Shown: one piece after another, positions 5,058 through 25,225 of the stretch
Layout: the number at the start of each line of letters is the position of its first letter
Numbering within the stretch: position 1 is the first letter of the stretch
IMG/VR virus record: IMGVR_UViG_3300035698_003722
Coordinates: 1 to 29,762 of that record
Length of the DNA stretch: 29,762 nt
Source of the DNA: a virus
Reading direction: 5' to 3' (one strand)
The notes under the pieces: generated by a model
Told to the model about the DNA's origin: nothing
Databases searched by the model: none
The model's input: only the letters and a program-made list of their open reading frames with translations
Made by a program: the position numbers and the translations under genes

Positions 5058-5086
5058 AAACCCCCGTCATCGCGACGGGGGTTTTT
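5058..5086 (+). terminator. Rho-independent terminator after the lysis module
   Basis: A perfect 11-bp stem AAACCCCCGTC / GACGGGGGTTT with a five-base loop (ATCGC) is followed by a T-run. It lies 62 bases after the spanin gene and separates the late transcript from the early operon at 5260. The A-run on the left of the stem makes it symmetric, but all genes are on the + strand. Confidence 0.92.
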
Positions 5087-5098
5087 CCGTTTAAATAC

Positions 5099-5146
5099 CG
5101 TCAGAAACGGCGCAAATTTCAACGATTACATTGAATACGTGTAAAC
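5099..5146 (+). repeat. 48-bp intergenic repeat, copy A
   Basis: Matches 10418-10465 at 45 of 48 positions and shares a core with 14396-14414. It contains CAAATTTCAACGA, an internal TTCAA...TTGAA inverted repeat, and ACGTGTAAAC. It lies between the late terminator and the early operator, about 80 bases upstream of the palindrome at 5227. Copy B is placed in the same way upstream of the second early promoter, which suggests a binding site for a regulator or initiator. Confidence 0.85.
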
Positions 5147-5226
5147 GTATGGCTTTGTTCATATCGTTTCAATATGGCGATGAGGTCGAATATTTAACTA
5201 AGCGAAAAAAAAAATGATCAGATAGT

Positions 5227-5251
5227 TATAGACTAAACAGTTTAGTCTATA
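5227..5251. promoter_or_regulatory. 25-bp perfect palindrome, probable operator
   Basis: Two 12-base arms (TATAGACTAAAC and its complement) flank a single A. The right arm runs into the -7 box at 5248-5255, so a dimeric protein bound here would block or position RNA polymerase. The core TAAACAGTTTAGTCTA (5234-5249) recurs exactly at 10555-10570. No repressor gene is recognised in the window, so the ligand could be a host factor or one of the unknown early proteins. Confidence 0.85.
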
Positions 5252-5255
5252 TTTG
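5248..5255 (+). promoter_or_regulatory. Early promoter -7 box (TATATTTG)
   Basis: Perfect TAnnTTTG match, five bases before the ATG at 5260 and overlapping the 25-bp palindrome. No clear -33 TTG is seen. The short distance implies a transcript with almost no 5' leader. Confidence 0.75.
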
Positions 5256-5259
5256 CCGT

Positions 5260-5532
5260 ATGAACAACGAAACCACCATCACCGCCGAATTTATTAACCC
5301 TCTGATTTTCAAGGGAATAACAATGAGGCAAGCAAACCGCGAATTTTTAGTTCGTTTTTATGCTGACGCATCGAACCGTTCCGATCACCGATTAATGTCG
5401 GTTAATTCATTACGGAATGAAATCGGCGATTTGTTCACGGTGAAATTCGTCGAAAAGTTCGTCGAATCAGGGTTTCAAAAGCAATCATTTAAACTAAGAC
5501 GCGGAATAGAAGTTGTTCTTTGGGCGCGTTAA
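5260..5532 (+). CDS. Unknown small early protein
   Basis: 90 residues, first gene of the early/replication operon, directly under the palindromic promoter; its ATG lies at or near the predicted transcription start. The sequence is basic and probably helical in the middle (MRQANREFLVRFYADASNR, LRNEIGDLFTVKFVEKFV) and ends in a short strand. No family is recognised. First position in the early operon and small basic composition would suit a regulator or host take-over protein, but nothing in the sequence proves it. Confidence 0.75.
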   Translation: MNNETTITAEFINPLIFKGITMRQANREFLVRFYADASNRSDHRLMSVNSLRNEIGDLFTVKFVEKFVESGFQKQSFKLRRGIEVVLWAR

Positions 5533-10417: not shown

Positions 10418-10465
10418 CGTCAGAAAAGGGGCAAATTTCAACGATTACATTGAACACGTGTAAAC
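10418..10465 (+). repeat. 48-bp intergenic repeat, copy B
   Basis: Same element as 5099-5146 with three mismatches. It begins seven bases after the primase-helicase stop. Downstream, TCAACGA recurs at 10473-10479 and in reverse (TCGTTGA) at 10505-10511, so the 170-bp gap holds three copies of that heptamer, one inside the repeat. The arrangement would suit an origin or a regulator binding region. Confidence 0.85.
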
Positions 10466-10554
10466 AGACACGTCAACGATAAAACACCTAAAACGGGCGT
10501 ATTGTCGTTGAATTAGCAATCCGCGAAAAATAAGTGACACCCGTTGTCGGATGT

Positions 10555-10570
10555 TAAACAGTTTAGTCTA
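10555..10570. promoter_or_regulatory. Second probable operator (TAAACAGTTTAGTCTA)
   Basis: Exactly the 16 bases found in the centre and right arm of the 5227-5251 palindrome; here only the inner TAAAC-A-GTTTA part is symmetric. As at 5227, it runs into the -7 region of a promoter, 11 bases before the ATG at 10581. A weaker site for the same regulator is the simplest reading. Confidence 0.8.
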
Positions 10571-10576
10571 CTTTTA
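10569..10576 (+). promoter_or_regulatory. Second early promoter, -7 box TACTTTTA
   Basis: One mismatch to TAnnTTTG, in the same place relative to the operator core and the start codon as the box at 5248. The ATG follows after four bases. Its resemblance to the first early promoter supports it more than the box itself. Confidence 0.55.
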
Positions 10577-10580
10577 CATC

Positions 10581-11000
10581 ATGAACGAACAGAAAAAAAG
10601 TACCCAAAAAGACGTCGACACGACGCAACCAATTGAAAACCAAGACGTTAACCGCGTTTTGTATTGCGAAAACCGAAACCAATATTTCGAACGGGCGACC
10701 GTAGGGATGACCCATTGGTGTAAGGACATAAAGTTCGCCGCCGAATTTAATCAACAAATGGCGGAAAACATGTTGTCCGCGATGAGGTCAACTATTTGTG
10801 ATCACAAACACATTCATATTTCAATCGGTGTGTTCGGTGGCGTCCTCGCTAATGCTTCGAGATGCGAATTAGCAAAAATCGAATTAGCAAAACGAAATTT
10901 GTTTGATTTGACGGGGTACGATAAAACCCAAAAGCGTGATTTTTGGTATGAAATCAACCGTCGATATTTATCGCAATTTCCAAAACACACCGCGTCGTAA
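10581..11000 (+). CDS. Unknown protein, first gene of second early block
   Basis: 139 residues from ATG 10581; an upstream in-frame ATG at 10551 would lie across the operator and promoter and is rejected. The chain is charged and probably helical (WCKDIKFAAEFNQQMAENML, CELAKIELAKRNLF, FWYEINRRYLSQF) with several cysteines and histidines (TICDHKHIHIS) that do not form a clear zinc motif. No family recognised. It shares the operator of the replication operon, so it is probably expressed at the same stage. Confidence 0.75.
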   Translation: MNEQKKSTQKDVDTTQPIENQDVNRVLYCENRNQYFERATVGMTHWCKDIKFAAEFNQQMAENMLSAMRSTICDHKHIHISIGVFGGVLANASRCELAKIELAKRNLFDLTGYDKTQKRDFWYEINRRYLSQFPKHTAS

Positions 11001-11669: not shown

Positions 11670-12110
11670 ATGAAATCCTACAACCATCAATGTAAAATAG
11701 TTCAAAATTTTGGGTCAGTATGTAAAGCTGACGTGTACCGCTTCGAAAAATCCTATTCAAAAAGCAAACAAACACGCGTCATGATCACGTTAACCGCTGA
11801 GAACGCCCACCACATGATTAATTCAGCAAACGACATGATCAAAAAATCAAAAGGTGATGAGTTCAACGAAGCGATAACCGTGTCATTGTTGAAGTTATTC
11901 GGGTTTCACCGAAATATTTCGGTTCGATGGTCGTCATTGAAAATAGTCGACGGAAACGTTGAAATCACATCGTTCGCCGACGTCCCCGAATTTGAGGGGT
12001 TCGAAAGCCCCGACGATTATTTCGAATATATTGACGAACCGTCCCGATTCGCTAATTTCATCAATCACCTGAAAAACGTATTGTCCAACACTAAAATATC
12101 AATGAAATGA
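11670..12110 (+). CDS. Unknown early protein
   Basis: 146 residues from ATG 11670; the in-frame ATG at 11628 would overlap the preceding gene by 40 bases. The chain mixes a basic first half (KIVQNFGSVCKADVYRFEKS, TRVMITLTAENAHHM) and an acidic part (FADVPEFEGFESPDDYFEYI). No known domain. It overlaps the following gene by four bases (ATGA). Confidence 0.65.
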   Translation: MKSYNHQCKIVQNFGSVCKADVYRFEKSYSKSKQTRVMITLTAENAHHMINSANDMIKKSKGDEFNEAITVSLLKLFGFHRNISVRWSSLKIVDGNVEITSFADVPEFEGFESPDDYFEYIDEPSRFANFINHLKNVLSNTKISMK

Positions 12111-12640
12111 ACGCCTTGAATTACGACGCTAAAGTGTGCCAAATGTTAGAGAAAATGCCCGTCGGGGCGATCGTTAGGGTTGATCGGGTTTGTCGACCTG
12201 AAAATCGTGATCGTTTCGTCGCGTCATTGAAAATGTGGATGAACCGACAGCCCCGCGGGTGTGGTGTTTCGTTTTCATCGGACTTCAGGACGTTTAGGAG
12301 AAACGCCGACGTGAAAACCGAAACCGAAACCGATCCGTCCGAATGGTCATTCGATGTTGAATTAGCTATTAAAAAAGCGAATGAGGTTGTCGCGTGGTGG
12401 AGGGAACGGATAAAACAACCCGTCACCCCGTTCACTTATAATGGATGCGAAACATTCAGTGATCCTATATTTTCAGTTGAATCATTCATCACCGTGATCG
12501 GATTGTCAAAACCTCGTTCGCGACCCTTTTCAACGTATGTGTACAAATTGCAAAAATTACGTGCGGCGGTTGAAAAAATAGACAAAGACAAATCGGGATC
12601 ACCTTATCACGAAATAAAAATGCCCGAATTGCCTGAGTAG
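12107..12640 (+). CDS. Unknown early protein
   Basis: 177 residues. The N-terminal region (YDAKVCQMLEKMPVGAIVRV) resembles a helix-turn start; then come MWMNRQPRGCGVSFSSDFRT, a helical region (ELAIKKANEVVAWWRERIK) and a C-terminal helix (YVYKLQKLRAAVEKIDKDKS). No recognised domain. It is followed after 21 bases by the first copy of the three-hairpin repeat, which separates it from the TOPRIM gene. Confidence 0.65.
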   Translation: MNALNYDAKVCQMLEKMPVGAIVRVDRVCRPENRDRFVASLKMWMNRQPRGCGVSFSSDFRTFRRNADVKTETETDPSEWSFDVELAIKKANEVVAWWRERIKQPVTPFTYNGCETFSDPIFSVESFITVIGLSKPRSRPFSTYVYKLQKLRAAVEKIDKDKSGSPYHEIKMPELPE

Positions 12641-12661: not shown

Positions 12662-12775
12662 GACCTATTTCGGAAAACGAAAGGGGGGTGTTTCGGAAAA
12701 CGAAACACCCTATTTCGGAAACGCGTAGGAGATAACACAGTTTATAACAAAGAAAAGAATACATGCCAATCAACT
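12662..12775 (+). repeat. Three-hairpin leader repeat, copy 1
   Basis: About 110 of 114 bases match 19279-19391. It holds three copies of a TTTCG-GAAA(A)-CG unit. The middle one forms a perfect 10-bp stem GGGTGTTTCG / CGAAACACCC (12686-12695 with 12701-12710) capped by GAAAA. The last 58 bases, from CTATTTCGG to ATGCC, are identical in both copies. Here the copied ATG (12763) opens a four-codon ORF (MPIN) and stops at 12775-12777, so this copy appears to have come from the gpG-like leader together with its first codons. Confidence 0.92.
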
Positions 12776-12817
12776 AAAACCATAAGCAATGGCAAATAAA
12801 GATATGTTCACGAATAA

Positions 12818-13678
12818 ATGGATCACGAACAATCGATCATAATCGTTCGACGCTATGAATCAGGGATGTTAACGATAAGGGCGTTGCATTATCAATTAGT
12901 TTCACGCGGTATGACGAATACTTTCGTTCATTACAAACGTGTGGTAAACGCAATGATCGCCGCCCGTTGGCGCGGTGATGTGTCTTTCGAGGCGTTCAGC
13001 GATCACGACCGTGAAATTTTAGGTGAATCAAGTCACACAACTACAACCGTTGAAAACGCCGTCGATTCATCAATGTACGCGATTAATCATTGGTTAAGCA
13101 ATTACAAAAAAAACCGATGGGAAAATCAAGAAAATTATCTTGAAATATGGATTGAAAAAAAAGCGTTACAAGGTGTCTTTCAGAAAGTAACCGAGCGAAA
13201 CGGCGTAATACTTTCGCCGTGTAAGGGTTACCCATCGTTGACGTTCTTAAATGACGCCGCTGAACGATTCGTTGAAGCAAAACGACGGGGAATGAATCCC
13301 GTCATTGTTTATTTTGGCGATTACGACGCAAGCGGCGAAGACATTCCCCGATCAATTCAAGATAACTTGAATCGTATTGGATCAGGGGGGGTGATTGTTG
13401 AGCGACGCGGGCTGTTCTTAATGCAAGTTGAAAAATTACAATTACCCACCGCGCCAACGAAAGCGGGCGATTCACGGGCGAAAAAATGGAAAGGTATCGG
13501 GCAAGTAGAACTTGATTCAGTTGATGTTTCTATTCTTCAAAGCTGGTGTCAAGAAGCAATTGATGAATTTTTTGATCCTGATTTGTATTCCGATCTGATT
13601 AGTATTGAAGCTGAAGAAACCGCCGAATACAGATCGGAAATGAAGTTGCGAATAATCGATTTAGTCAACGACATGTAA
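12818..13678 (+). CDS. Single-subunit Topo VI-A/Spo11-like TOPRIM protein (Topo mini-A type)
   Basis: 286 residues. The N-terminal domain contains LTIRALHYQLVSRG, where R21 and Y25 line up with the R-x3-Y of the winged-helix (5Y-CAP) domain of topoisomerase VI A and Spo11, whose tyrosine cuts DNA. The TOPRIM domain has E113 (WIEKKAL) and D168/D170 (YFGDYDASG), with the linking KGYPSLTFLNDAAERF typical of phage homologues. No GHKL-ATPase B subunit is in the genome. Such stand-alone A-like proteins in mobile elements have been called Topo mini-A; activity is largely unstudied. A duplicated leader and two tiny ORFs precede the gene. The ATG follows GAATAA. Confidence 0.75.
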   Translation: MDHEQSIIIVRRYESGMLTIRALHYQLVSRGMTNTFVHYKRVVNAMIAARWRGDVSFEAFSDHDREILGESSHTTTTVENAVDSSMYAINHWLSNYKKNRWENQENYLEIWIEKKALQGVFQKVTERNGVILSPCKGYPSLTFLNDAAERFVEAKRRGMNPVIVYFGDYDASGEDIPRSIQDNLNRIGSGGVIVERRGLFLMQVEKLQLPTAPTKAGDSRAKKWKGIGQVELDSVDVSILQSWCQEAIDEFFDPDLYSDLISIEAEETAEYRSEMKLRIIDLVNDM

Positions 13679-13727: not shown

Positions 13728-14234
13728 ATGAAAAATTTACTTTTTTTAATCGCCGCGATTGCGTTCATAACAACCACCGCCGCCCCCCCGTTGATCGGGC
13801 AAACCTCGTTATCTGACGTGATGGTTCAATCTGACTACTCAATTGTAAAAGTGGAAACGATTTCGGATTCGGTTGTGTACTGCGAAAATATTTCCGTATT
13901 GCTGACTGTTTGTTCAAATTTCGGGTTCGTTGGGTTAAGCACGTTCGATGTTGATGACAACGGATCAGTCGGCGCGACCGATTTGAATCAATTCGTTTCG
14001 GGTTATGGCACGAATTGCGAATTTCCTGATTTCAACGAATTAATAATTGATGAAACTTTTTCGGGTGGTGTTACATTTTTTGAATCAAATGATGAAATGA
14101 TTATTGGGTTTTTGGAACGGACAATGTGGGATGAACCCGATCCGAATGACTACGGTTACGCCCCCTTGACTTTTGAATTAACAACGATCACGTCAGATAA
14201 AATCATGAAACATTGGGTCGTCGTGAAAAAGTAG
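13728..14234 (+). CDS. Secreted protein with EF-hand/dockerin-like loop (moron candidate)
   Basis: 168 residues. Residues 1-25 form a signal peptide (KNLLFLIAAIAFITTTAAPP) with likely cleavage after IGQ; there is no lipobox. A 12-residue calcium-binding loop, D74-x-D76-x-N78-G-S80-x4-D85 in FDVDDNGSVGATDLNQFVSG, is followed by YGTNC, a form frequent in secreted Bacteroidota proteins. Only one loop is present, whereas true dockerins have two. The remaining C-terminal part is acidic and unassigned. The gene has its own promoter box and terminator between the early and packaging operons, which fits a moron altering the host surface or secretion. Confidence 0.7.
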   Translation: MKNLLFLIAAIAFITTTAAPPLIGQTSLSDVMVQSDYSIVKVETISDSVVYCENISVLLTVCSNFGFVGLSTFDVDDNGSVGATDLNQFVSGYGTNCEFPDFNELIIDETFSGGVTFFESNDEMIIGFLERTMWDEPDPNDYGYAPLTFELTTITSDKIMKHWVVVKK

Positions 14235-14275
14235 ATAGGAAATAAAGACGGATGATCCGTCGCTATATTTAAAGG

Positions 14276-14304
14276 AACGCCCCGTTAAACGGGCGTTTTT
14301 TTTT
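14276..14304 (+). terminator. Rho-independent terminator after the secreted-protein gene
   Basis: Stem AACGCCC / GGGCGTT with an eight-base loop (CGTTAAAC) followed by nine T. It lies 42 bases after the stop codon and ends transcription of the early side or of the moron unit. Confidence 0.9.
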
Positions 14305-17049: not shown

Positions 17050-18336
17050 ATGAAAATTCCATTCACAAACATTGAAATCGGACGCGTCGCGCATGTCGCC
17101 GAAGTTGAAAACATTGAAAAAAAACGTCCTGATTCAGGCGAAGTGTTCAAAGGGGTCGTGAAAAGTCAGTTAACGCGTTCACGCGCAAATATCGGAAAAT
17201 GGGTCGGCGCGGTTGCGTTGGCGGAATCGGTAAAAACCCCCGATCGAACTGAACTAATCCGACTTTTCAATGAAGTCGACCGTGATCCGCATTTAAGATC
17301 GTTAATGTCGACGCGGACAAACGCGGTTTTGTCGACGCCCTATTTCCTACGGAAAAAAGGCGAAGTGGTTCGTGATGATGATCAATCCTTAATACTCAAT
17401 GCGGAATGGTTTGTTAGGTTTTTGGAGTTGACAATCGACGCGAGATTTTACGGTTATTCCCTGATCCAACTTGATGAAATAATCGACAACAAATTCAAGT
17501 CAGTCGAACTTGTACCGCGACAATACGTCGTCCCTGAATTGGAATCGGTTCGACTGAAAATCGGTTCGAAGGAAATGAAATCATTCATCGAACCCCCGTT
17601 TTCTGATTGGTGTATTGGTGTGGGTGATCGGTTCGATTTAGGGATTATCAACAACGCCATTCCGTTTTTAATCTACAAAAAAGACGTTTTGGCGGCGTGG
17701 TCTGAGTATGCGGATTTGTTTGGCGCGCCGATTAGGATCGGGCGAACGGACGTTCAAAATAACGTGAAACGCGAAAACATGAATGACATGTTGGAAAACA
17801 TGGGGTCAATGTCATGGGGAACGTTCGATATAAATGATCAACTTGAATTAATCGAGGCGAACAACCGTGACGCGTTCAATGTATTCAAAGAAATGGCAAA
17901 AACAGTTAATTCTGAATTGTCAAAATTATTCGTCGGACAAACGGGGACGACTGACGAAAAATCATTCGTCGGATCAGTAGAAGCCCATGAACGAACGTTC
18001 AACACTTACACCGCCGCCGATAAACGATTTGTTGCGAACGTGGTTAACAACAGATTAATTCCCTTAATGGTTTCACACGGAATGATCCCTGACGGTTTTG
18101 AATTTGCGTTTGATTACACGGAAAAACTGACGTTGGATCAGAAACGCGAAGCGGTCAAAGCGTTCGCCCCTTACTTTGAAATATCGCCCGAATGGATCAC
18201 CGAACAATTCGGAACACCAATCGAAGCGGTGAAAACGTCGGGCGGGAACGTTGATCCGACAAACGGTTTGACGAATAGTCAACGCGTTCTCGTCGCGACT
18301 TCGAAGTTGTACGAACAAGCAAAACCAAAAAAATGA
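17050..18336 (+). CDS. Portal protein, Mu gp29-like (DUF935)
   Basis: 428 residues from ATG 17050; an in-frame GTG at 17026 would overlap gp36 and is less likely. Recognisable family segments include FNEVDRDPHLRSLMSTRTNA, YGYSLIQLDEI, DLFGAPIRIGRT, LSKLFVGQTGTTDEKSFVGS and FNTYTAADKRF. It forms the dodecameric ring through which DNA enters the capsid. It overlaps the following 47-residue gene by four bases. Confidence 0.88.
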   Translation: MKIPFTNIEIGRVAHVAEVENIEKKRPDSGEVFKGVVKSQLTRSRANIGKWVGAVALAESVKTPDRTELIRLFNEVDRDPHLRSLMSTRTNAVLSTPYFLRKKGEVVRDDDQSLILNAEWFVRFLELTIDARFYGYSLIQLDEIIDNKFKSVELVPRQYVVPELESVRLKIGSKEMKSFIEPPFSDWCIGVGDRFDLGIINNAIPFLIYKKDVLAAWSEYADLFGAPIRIGRTDVQNNVKRENMNDMLENMGSMSWGTFDINDQLELIEANNRDAFNVFKEMAKTVNSELSKLFVGQTGTTDEKSFVGSVEAHERTFNTYTAADKRFVANVVNNRLIPLMVSHGMIPDGFEFAFDYTEKLTLDQKREAVKAFAPYFEISPEWITEQFGTPIEAVKTSGGNVDPTNGLTNSQRVLVATSKLYEQAKPKK

Positions 18337-18476
18337 AGATCAAGATAACGCACAAAGAAACGGTCGTTGAGTTCAGCGAACCAAATATTCATCGTTTTGA
18401 TACGGCTAAATTAATATTGGCGGAAATGGTTCAGAATATTCACCGTTTGAATACCAAAGCCGAAAACCCGAAATAA
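18333..18476 (+). CDS. Small unknown protein between portal and MuF
   Basis: 47 residues, ATG at 18333 overlapping the portal stop (ATGA), ending in TAA directly before the ATG of the next gene (TAAATG). The chain starts with KIKITHKETVVEFSEPNIHR and is charged and partly helical (TAKLILAEMVQNIHRLNTK). The perfect packing between two structural genes supports real translation. Function unknown. Confidence 0.6.
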   Translation: MKIKITHKETVVEFSEPNIHRFDTAKLILAEMVQNIHRLNTKAENPK

Positions 18477-19280
18477 ATGGACTTAACCGACGCGCAAATT
18501 GCGCAACTATTGGAGCAAGTATTCGCGGGAACGGTGACGGGTTTCGAACCGTCATTGGACTTGTACATCGCAACGGCGGAACATTTGGATGATGGATTGT
18601 TCGAAGGGTACGGGATGTCATTGTTCGATGAAAACGGATTCGCGGATTTGTCCAAATTGGACGCGGAAATGTTAACAGATTTACGCGATAATATACATGT
18701 TTTCAGCGCGTTCAAAGCGCATCATTCCGCCGATTTCATGGGTTCGTTGATTTGGGATGATGACGGGATTAAACGTCCGTTCGCTGATTTTAAATTGGAC
18801 GCGATGAATTATTTCGGGATCGCACACGATACGCATTTGGAAACGGAATTTCGAACGTCGGTCGCGATGGGACGGGGGGCGTCATTTTGGCGGGACATTC
18901 AGGATGACAAGGATTTGTTTCCGTTCCTGAGATACAACACCGTGGGTGATGAGCGCGTTCGCCCTGATCATGTGGATTTAGACGGAATCACACGCCCCGT
19001 CGGGGACAAGTTTTGGAAAACGCATTTCCCGCCGAACGGTTTTCGATGTCGATGTGACGTGGATCAGGAATCAGGAACGGACGCGGGATTCAAACAAACG
19101 TCCAATAAGGTGATGAAAACGGTCGATGATCCGCCTGAATTGTTCAAAATGAACCCCGCGTTGGATCGGGTGGTGTTTTCGGCGGATCACCCCGCGTTCA
19201 CGGTCGCGGAAAAATACAAGGTTGAAGCAAAGGAAATGTTCGGATTGCCGCCTAAATTCGGTCGTCACTTGGACGAATGA
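18477..19280 (+). CDS. Mu F-like minor head protein (gp30/SPP1 gp7 family)
   Basis: 267 residues. The C-terminal half carries the family signature: YNTVGDERVRPDHVDLDGIT, VGDKFWKTHFPPNGFRCRCD. The first half is helical. These proteins attach to the portal and are packaged in the head, sometimes ejected with the DNA. The last codons overlap the start of repeat copy 2, whose first two bases belong to the stop codon. Confidence 0.85.
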   Translation: MDLTDAQIAQLLEQVFAGTVTGFEPSLDLYIATAEHLDDGLFEGYGMSLFDENGFADLSKLDAEMLTDLRDNIHVFSAFKAHHSADFMGSLIWDDDGIKRPFADFKLDAMNYFGIAHDTHLETEFRTSVAMGRGASFWRDIQDDKDLFPFLRYNTVGDERVRPDHVDLDGITRPVGDKFWKTHFPPNGFRCRCDVDQESGTDAGFKQTSNKVMKTVDDPPELFKMNPALDRVVFSADHPAFTVAEKYKVEAKEMFGLPPKFGRHLDE

Positions 19281-19391
19281 CCTATTTCGGAAAACGAAAG
19301 GGGGTATTTCGGAAAACGAAACCCCCTATTTCGGAAACGCGTAGGAGATAACACAGTTTATAACAAAGAAAAGAATACATGCCTATCAACT
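19279..19391 (+). repeat. Three-hairpin leader repeat, copy 2
   Basis: Second copy of 12662-12775. It fills the 98-bp gap between the MuF-like gene and the gpG-like gene and includes the latter's first four codons. The middle hairpin keeps its stem in another way: GGGGG/CCCCC with TTTCG/CGAAA and a bulged TA (19300-19311 with 19317-19326). Changed bases on both arms with the stem kept point to selection for structure. This is probably the original location, since here the ATG starts a full gene. Confidence 0.9.
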
Positions 19392-19795
19392 TTAAGAAAG
19401 CGAAATCACGGGTCAAAAAAATCAAATCGGAAACCCCGCGTTTGATTGCGGTCGAAGCGGTAAAGCATTTCAAAAAATCTTTTCGGGACGGCGGGTTCAC
19501 TGACGATCGTTTTTCACCGTGGGCGAAACGCAAGCGATTAAGCAAGTCGGACAAGCGTACAAAGAAACGCCGCGCGATTTTGGTTGATTCGGGTGATCTT
19601 CGAAAATCGATCAAACGTCGAAAGGCAACATTTCGAACGGTCGTCGTAGGGTCGTATGGGTTGAATTATTCGTCCATTCACAATCGCGGTAAGGGGCGAA
19701 TTCCAAAGCGTCAATTTGTAGGGGAATCGCGAAAACTGAATTTATCAATCAGATTGATCCTATACAAAAAATTCAAAAACGCATTGAAAAAATAA
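19379..19795 (+). CDS. Virion morphogenesis protein, Mu gpG-like
   Basis: 138 residues, very basic (KKAKSRVKKIK, WAKRKRLSKSDKRTKKRR). The family core ILVDSGDLRKSI, VVVGSYGLNYSSIHNRG and IPKRQFVGESRKL is complete. gpG-like proteins act in head-tail joining or tail completion. It is the only structural gene preceded by the three-hairpin leader, whose 3' end includes an AGGAG 51 bases before the ATG, too far to act as a standard ribosome site. Confidence 0.85.
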   Translation: MPINFKKAKSRVKKIKSETPRLIAVEAVKHFKKSFRDGGFTDDRFSPWAKRKRLSKSDKRTKKRRAILVDSGDLRKSIKRRKATFRTVVVGSYGLNYSSIHNRGKGRIPKRQFVGESRKLNLSIRLILYKKFKNALKK

Positions 19796-24671: not shown

Positions 24672-25022
24672 ATGGCAAATTCAGATTTAAAAAGGGATGA
24701 GGTAGGACAGCCAAAGGAAGAAACAATAAAAAAAGCTGATCCCGTTGATCCGTTCCCAGCGGGGACGAAATACATCATCGAAGTCGAAGGTAAAACCGCA
24801 TATTTGAGAAAACCCGACCGTCACACGGTTGAGGCGGCGTTAGGTTATGCGATGCCAATTCAGGGTCGCCCCCAGTATGTTCGCGCGGGCGAAATAGTGC
24901 TTTTGGGTTGTTGGTTGGGTGGCGATGAGGAAATCAAAACAGATGACGATTTATTGATCCCCGCGGCGATGCAAGCATTTCAAACGATAAGCAAAACGGC
25001 GGCGACCTTAAAAAAAAATTAA
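24672..25022 (+). CDS. Tail assembly chaperone, short form (gpG-like)
   Basis: 116 residues ending in a lysine-asparagine tail coded by an A-run. The core (KYIIEVEGKTAYLRKPDRHT, VLLGCWLGGDEEIKTDDDLL) fits chaperones that hold the tape measure before tube polymerisation. It stops at 25020-25022. A -1 slip on the nine A at 25010-25018 continues into the downstream frame without a stop, giving a 184-residue long form. Confidence 0.8.
   Translation: MANSDLKRDEVGQPKEETIKKADPVDPFPAGTKYIIEVEGKTAYLRKPDRHTVEAALGYAMPIQGRPQYVRAGEIVLLGCWLGGDEEIKTDDDLLIPAAMQAFQTISKTAATLKKN
25010..25018 (+). other. Programmed -1 frameshift site (A9)
   Basis: Zero-frame codons are TTA AAA AAA AAT TAA. Slipping back one base on AAA gives AAA TTA AGT GCG and an open frame that passes through ATG 25070 to the stop at 25225. 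Position, direction and gene context (last codons of the chaperone, just upstream of the tape measure) match the classic gpG/gpGT arrangement. Confidence 0.85.
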
Positions 25023-25069
25023 GTGCGTCACGGTTAAATGTTAAAAACGGATCATCGGAAATCTCTAAA

Positions 25070-25225
25070 ATGAATTCGTTGATCCGTTTCTACTTACATA
25101 TCAACCCGCGTGAATTAACGGATGACGAATTCGCGCAAACTTGGAACGAATTGCAATTCGCAATTGATTATCATCGAAAAAACGTGATCGGGGTGACTGA
25201 AAACGTTATGAAAAAGGGAAAATAA
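25070..25225 (+). CDS. Tail assembly chaperone T domain (frameshift extension)
   Basis: The open frame begins at the slip site (25016) and holds LSASRLNVKNGSSEISK before M at 25070; a 51-residue protein could also start there. The part FYLHINPRELTDDEFAQTWN is the typical T domain of Bacteroidota phages. It stops right before the tape measure ATG (TAAATG). As part of the fusion it would bring tube subunits to the tape measure. Independent translation from 25070 is possible but less likely. Confidence 0.75.
   Translation: MNSLIRFYLHINPRELTDDEFAQTWNELQFAIDYHRKNVIGVTENVMKKGK

Follow-up and report, generated by a model that had tools for sequence, protein, structure and literature searches.

A duplicated intercistronic element at the F-G junction and an accessory slot of a Winoviridae-like phage, predicted to act as an mRNA signal

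An intercistronic element is present twice, in the same orientation, in the DNA of an uncultured Winoviridae-like phage of Bacteroidota, once between the head genes F and G and once in front of an accessory gene slot. The window analyzed here is the whole stretch of 29,762 bases, which has Mu-type head genes and a 127-base terminal direct repeat. Both copies, and their fold, are retained in related phages, which makes a functional role likely, as a signal for mRNA processing or as a start signal. We propose that it is a cis-acting signal in plus-strand intercistronic RNA, in which a hairpin for mRNA processing or insulation is followed by a translation-initiation leader. This prediction is tentative, and we put its probability at roughly 0.4.

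Gene setting of the two copies

The Mu-type head genes in the window encode the terminase large subunit, a portal-like protein, gpF (Phage_Mu_F), and gpG (PF05069). By gpF, the closest named phages (31-39% amino-acid identity) are Winoviridae of Flavobacterium and Winogradskyella. Three related contigs were found, namely L003 and L004, both with gpF at 90%, and L179 (portal 82%). The element is identical in L003 and L004, which were therefore counted as one lineage, so that the comparison of the element rests on five sequences from three lineages.

Sequence comparison within the record places the early copy at 12662-12775 and the late copy at 19279-19391, both on the plus strand, as the first-pass annotation had reported. 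BLASTN aligns them in the same orientation with 96% identity over 114 columns (E 1.5e-49), and there is no third copy in the record. A core of 95 nt is 96% identical, and 5′ of the core lies an identical block of 26 nt with a 1-nt length difference. The sequence TTTCGGAAAACGAAA occurs exactly four times in the window, twice in each copy.

All features in the setting are on the plus strand. The late copy lies between the gpF-like gene (Phage_Mu_F, 18477-19280), whose stop codon abuts the hairpin, and the gpG-like virion morphogenesis gene (PF05069, 19379-19795). The early copy lies between a conserved gene (12107-12640, 55% amino-acid identity in L004) and a DNA topoisomerase-like TOPRIM gene (12818-13678, PHROG 6247, E 5e-53), which is the cargo of the slot here. 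A second conserved gene, with a dockerin-like repeat recognized by eye, is found downstream of the slot (13728-14234). The early copy also carries a remnant of the gpG start, the codons MPIN followed by a stop (12763-12777), and a 17-codon ORF (12789-12842) overlaps the TOPRIM start at 12818; the sequence bears out the earlier description of both.

Each copy sits within a terminator-bounded operon, closed by intrinsic terminators at 14275-14304 for the early copy, also present in L004, and at 5058-5086 for the late copy. The gene layout suggests that both copies are placed within polycistronic transcripts. No TAnnTTTG promoter was found near either copy, and no terminator was recognized at the element itself. 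TAnnTTTG sites 3-6 bases ahead of an ATG include those at 5248 and 14552 in the window and at 911 in L004. At 5248 and 14552, the motif is followed by 4 bases and then ATG, which would yield nearly leaderless mRNAs.

Three further observations were made in the window. A second pair of duplicated intergenic stretches (5099-5265 and 10418-10586) shares 48 nt at 94% and 32 nt at 81% identity in nearly the same register. These stretches end in TATATTTG and TACTTTTA, respectively, immediately 5′ of ATG, and they are probably duplicated early promoters. The gap between the portal gene and F holds a 47-codon ORF (18333-18476), which L004 does not have. An ORF at 24672-25225 is followed by a 203-nt gap and then a tape-measure-like gene, an arrangement that may represent a frameshifted tail assembly chaperone.

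Predicted fold and conservation

The minimum-energy fold given by RNAfold for the window copies is one nested hairpin (12664-12729 in the early copy and 19281-19345 in the late copy), with pairing between unit 3 and the arms of unit 1. The fold energies are -30.2 and -25.7 kcal/mol (z -6.6 and -3.5), and none of the 200 shuffles was as stable. One long hairpin of -23.6 to -30.2 kcal/mol is predicted on the plus strand for all five copies, with plus-strand z-scores of -2.4 to -5.9 in the five-copy comparison, and the minus-strand fold is weaker in each of them. From the outside to the inside, the hairpin consists of CCU(A)/(U)AGG, a C-G/G-C step, an internal loop, a helix between CGAAA of unit 1 and UUUCG of unit 3, a GC clamp, and a tip formed by unit 2. 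The internal loop is asymmetric and is predicted as 5/4 in four copies, the early window copy among them; it is 7/8 in L179, where the helix between units 1 and 3 is partly lost. The hairpin begins 0-1 nt past the upstream stop codon in four of the five copies, and the gap is 23 nt in the early window copy.

The first-pass annotation had described three tandem hairpins. Such a local form does compete. Its isolated fold is 2.6-5.2 kcal/mol weaker than the nested one, and when L004 is folded within its mRNA context, the predicted minimum has three local hairpins enclosed by an outer AUGACCCU/AGGGUUAU helix. Of the three, the last hairpin is weak, however, and the nested form is the minimum-energy fold. 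The middle stem is kept despite changes on both arms, as had been noted: it reads GGGTG/CACCC in the early copy and GGGGG/CCCCC with a TA bulge in the late copy. The GAAAA loop did not hold up as a shared feature, as the relatives carry GTAAA, AAAAA (L004 early), and TTAAA (L179).

The GC clamp occurs in two orientations, C..G in L179 and the L004 late copy and G..C in the other three copies (the two of the window and L004 early), so that pairing is kept; this flip may reflect one or two events through shuffling of the 22-nt units. In the alignment of the nested hairpin, 94% of the cells pair, and 9 cells are changed on both sides compared with 3.8 in shuffles (0 of 500 as high). Such counts favor the structures, which were read off the same sequences, and they reflect few independent events. 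Counted by pairs, 5 are changed on both sides compared with 3.4 in shuffles, a value reached by 71 of the 500. The tandem three-hairpin form scores similarly (91% of cells, 10 changed on both sides), and since the two forms share the clamp, the covariation count does not choose between them. Other intergenic gaps of the window are also structured; thus, it is the duplication and the conservation, and not structure alone, that are distinctive.

Units 1 and 2 have invariant TTTCG/CGAA arms in every copy, and unit 3 is a half-site only. An A-rich leader of ~33 nt, with a conserved ATAACA...TTATAACAAAG, runs from the hairpin foot to the ATG (12730-12762 in the early copy and 19346-19378 in the late copy), and no close match to it was found elsewhere in the window. 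Between the window and L004, the hairpin is 77% identical in the late copy and 91% in the early copy, compared with four-fold degenerate-site identities of 59% for F, 50% for G, and 56% for the portal gene, and of 35% for the gene beside the early slot (only 34 sites). The higher identity of the element suggests that it is constrained as a non-coding element, or that the early copy has been partly refreshed by conversion.

History of the copies and the F-G junction of other phages

All three related contigs have the late copy at their F-G junction. L004 is the relative that spans both sites, and it keeps both copies at homologous positions; its early copy lies 3′ of the homologue of ORF 12107-12640 and 5′ of the homologue of the gene at 13728. 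The L179 contig begins downstream of the early slot, and the counts for the early copy come from the window and L004. The gene behind the early copy in L004 is a 60-aa ORF that begins at the leader's own ATG and is different from TOPRIM; no function could be assigned to it. No TOPRIM homologue was found on the 25.8-kb L004 contig or in L179, and a TOPRIM protein query against viral contigs found no relatives. Because the cargo differs, the leader appears to mark an accessory slot rather than to have been copied to the TOPRIM gene in particular. This modifies the earlier proposal that a leader had been copied to a gene of another function: a gpG leader moving from late to early fits the data, with the slot rather than the TOPRIM gene as the target and with an old copying event. 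We note that the F-G junction also takes cargo: Flavobacterium phage FPSV-S1 has a gene for a site-specific DNA methylase there (L012, 3277-4191).

The L004 early copy retains ATGCCG and the CGAATGACCC sequence spanning the F stop codon, which it has in common with the L004 late copy. These remnants of the F-G junction in the early copies make it likely that the late site was the source and the early slot the recipient. The occupation of both sites in a relative ~79% identical indicates that the copying is old and fits a duplication that predates the split of the window phage and L004. The part 3′ of the hairpin is 100% identical between the copies of the window and 94% between those of L004, compared with 74-77% between the two phages. 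The hairpin half of the L004 early copy is 91-92% identical to the window copies and 75% to the L004 late copy, which is itself closest to the L179 late copy (82%). From these mosaic identities we infer that the copies have exchanged sequence since the duplication, presumably by gene conversion.

Among Mu-like phages and prophages of Bacteroidota that are less closely related, the F-G gap has a different content. A minus-strand TAnnTTTG is present in 39 of the 53 gaps surveyed and a plus-strand motif in 3; the minus-strand search also covered 30 bases of gpG, some longer gaps hold small ORFs, and not all 39 are convincing. In several of these gaps, the motif is followed by a hairpin of ~45 nt with a CGCG...TAA...CAAG core and then by a terminator-like hairpin. 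Among nine sequences of the first hairpin, 7 of 10 pairs are changed on both sides (16 cells compared with 6.3 in shuffles). A model of it matched one locus outside the training set at the same place, weakly (L073, E 0.007), and matched away from such prophages in 3 of 299 genomes of one family; Rfam gave no family match in the eight loci tested. We regard the F-G gap (at about 10,200 in most) of L063, L075, L091, L114, L117, L118, L125, L127, and L130 as holding a candidate minus-strand small RNA gene, with a TATATTTG-type promoter beside the gpG start, the covarying hairpin, and a terminator-like hairpin at the F stop codon. The window element has no such promoter and terminator, and therefore this candidate does not explain it. 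Homology of the element to these gaps was likewise rejected, as the covariance model R1, run on 88 sequences, found no new member, only the known copies, with the next match at E 0.97. Rfam gave no gathering-score match in the window and none at E up to 5 for 19230-19420. Phage records searched with the element yielded chance matches only, and the sole other 19-mer match is within the coding sequence of an unrelated phage.

Proposed role, alternatives, and known systems

The element is intercistronic, structured, conserved, and fixed in orientation, with no recognized promoter, and we infer from this combination that it acts as RNA. In the proposed mechanism, the imperfect hairpin of roughly 66 nt starts at the upstream stop codon and is followed by the A-rich leader and the start codon. 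Cleavage of the RNase III type at the asymmetric internal loop, insulation and protection of the cut mRNA, or both would allow the downstream cistron to be expressed as its own unit. The original copy would serve gpG; an ancestral duplication would have placed a second copy in the accessory slot, along with the gpG start and the stop region of F, and there it would head whichever gene occupies the slot. It counts against this reading that in the window the ATG of the early leader gives only MPIN-stop and cannot directly start the TOPRIM protein. A more speculative and rather doubtful extension is that the leader is a portable cassette, in which matched structured leaders on a virion-assembly gene and an exchangeable accessory gene are kept alike by recombination, one factor acts on both, and accessory genes are swapped behind a ready-made start signal. 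If the proposed mechanism itself is right, an mRNA leader would be evolving as its own module, with the leader of a structural gene duplicated into an accessory slot and retained there while the cargo changes. A common RNA-level regulator of both leaders, as suggested earlier, is possible; a putative GAAAA-binding protein would face a loop that varies among the copies.

Four narrower mechanisms were tried and rejected. Shine-Dalgarno sequestration does not fit an AGGAG that is more than 30 nt from the ATG and is changed to AGGAT in L179, and by sequence reading the frame that would follow read-through of the F stop codon is closed in the L004 late copy by an in-frame TAA ~13 codons on. CsrA-type GGA sites have disappeared from the middle units of L004 and, in L179, from units 1 and 2, and boxB-like loops are not maintained, the GNRA-like pentaloop being AAAAA in L004 early and TTAAA in L179. 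A limited literature search, covering intercistronic phage stem-loops and small RNAs of Mu-like Bacteroidetes phages, found nothing specific and no RNA-level control of this kind in Bacteroidota phages.

Several other explanations may be considered. The element could be a DNA operator array, with tandem palindromes TTTCGNNNAACGAAA repeated every 22-23 bp, or about two helical turns, to which a DNA-binding protein of the phage would attach to control or block transcription in a stoperator-like manner. The invariant arms of units 1 and 2, the constant spacing, and a perfect palindrome in L179 (TTTCGTTAAACGAAA) speak for such an array; it is nevertheless unlikely, given that unit 3 is a half-site, that the GC clamps between units vary in a way that preserves pairing, and that both sites have no recognized promoter and a fixed orientation and distance to the ATG. 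We also consider it unlikely, and more so, that the hairpin is bound by a phage protein, perhaps the basic gpG, which represses or couples downstream translation. The lysine- and arginine-rich gpG and the position of the hairpin against the stop codon, where a terminating ribosome would melt its foot, are consistent with this control, but the start codon ~33 nt beyond the hairpin is not sequestered, AGGAG becomes AGGAT in L179, the loop varies, and the early window copy does not head the cargo ATG. The mosaic pattern, with 3′ halves 94-100% alike within a genome and an L004 early hairpin half resembling the window copies, could even come from a tandem-repeat patch homogenized by recombination, with no regulatory role; conservation of both sites beyond synonymous sites and a fold kept also in L179 make this quite improbable.

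The remaining explanations carry still less weight. A minus-strand small RNA, as suspected in the surveyed F-G gaps, is very unlikely here, as the minus-strand TAnnTTTG is absent from the window, L004, and L179, no terminator was seen on the minus strand, and the fold is weaker on that strand. Two similar structured copies per genome and GAAAA pentaloops in some units resemble an antitermination or RNA polymerase-modifying RNA of the put or nut type, which we judge very improbable indeed, because the recognized promoters are distant, the GNRA-like loop is lost in two copies, and no antiterminator gene was identified. The palindromic and duplicated nature of the element fits a small mobile element (MITE), an alternative given in the first-pass annotation, which would show as random scatter in hosts. 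This suggestion is rejected as highly improbable: a degenerate 25-base pattern of the element had 0 matches in 84,980 genomes and matched only the L003 and L004 contig among viral contigs, dispersed copies in hosts or unrelated phages were not found, L004 uses the same two sites, and the boundaries of the element follow the F-G junction.

The preferred reading, an RNA-level processing and start signal, can be compared with known systems. Lambda boxB and HK022 put are repeated small RNA hairpins, some with GAAAA loops; the element differs from them in its varying loop, distant promoters, and lack of an identified antiterminator. In cluster K mycobacteriophages, the SAS is a 13-bp sequence, GGGATAGGAGCCC, located 3-7 bp from the ATG in 11-19 copies per genome, and the extended SAS (ESAS) has upstream inverted repeats that do not support RNA pairing (PMC3203893). 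The likeness lies in a repeated conserved sequence with inverted repeats at the starts of genes of different families, in the same orientation and kept across relatives. The element differs in having two copies, a hairpin foot ~33 nt from the ATG with the sequence TAGGAGATAACA, and pairing that is kept.

Phage T7 has several RNase III processing sites per genome. One of them, R1.1, is located between genes 1.0 and 1.1 and is a standard RNase III substrate; it folds into a hairpin of 60 nt whose asymmetric internal loop is 4/5 (PMC6121014). The element resembles it as an intercistronic hairpin of ~60 nt with an asymmetric loop in polycistronic phage mRNA, here a predicted fold with a 5/4 loop in four of five copies. 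It differs in that there is no known sequence similarity, the phage is one of Bacteroidota, a long A-rich leader is conserved alongside, and the loop is 7/8 in L179. By this analogy of shape and place, rather than by membership of the class, processing of the RNase III type with insulation of the downstream cistron would be the likeliest job of the element.
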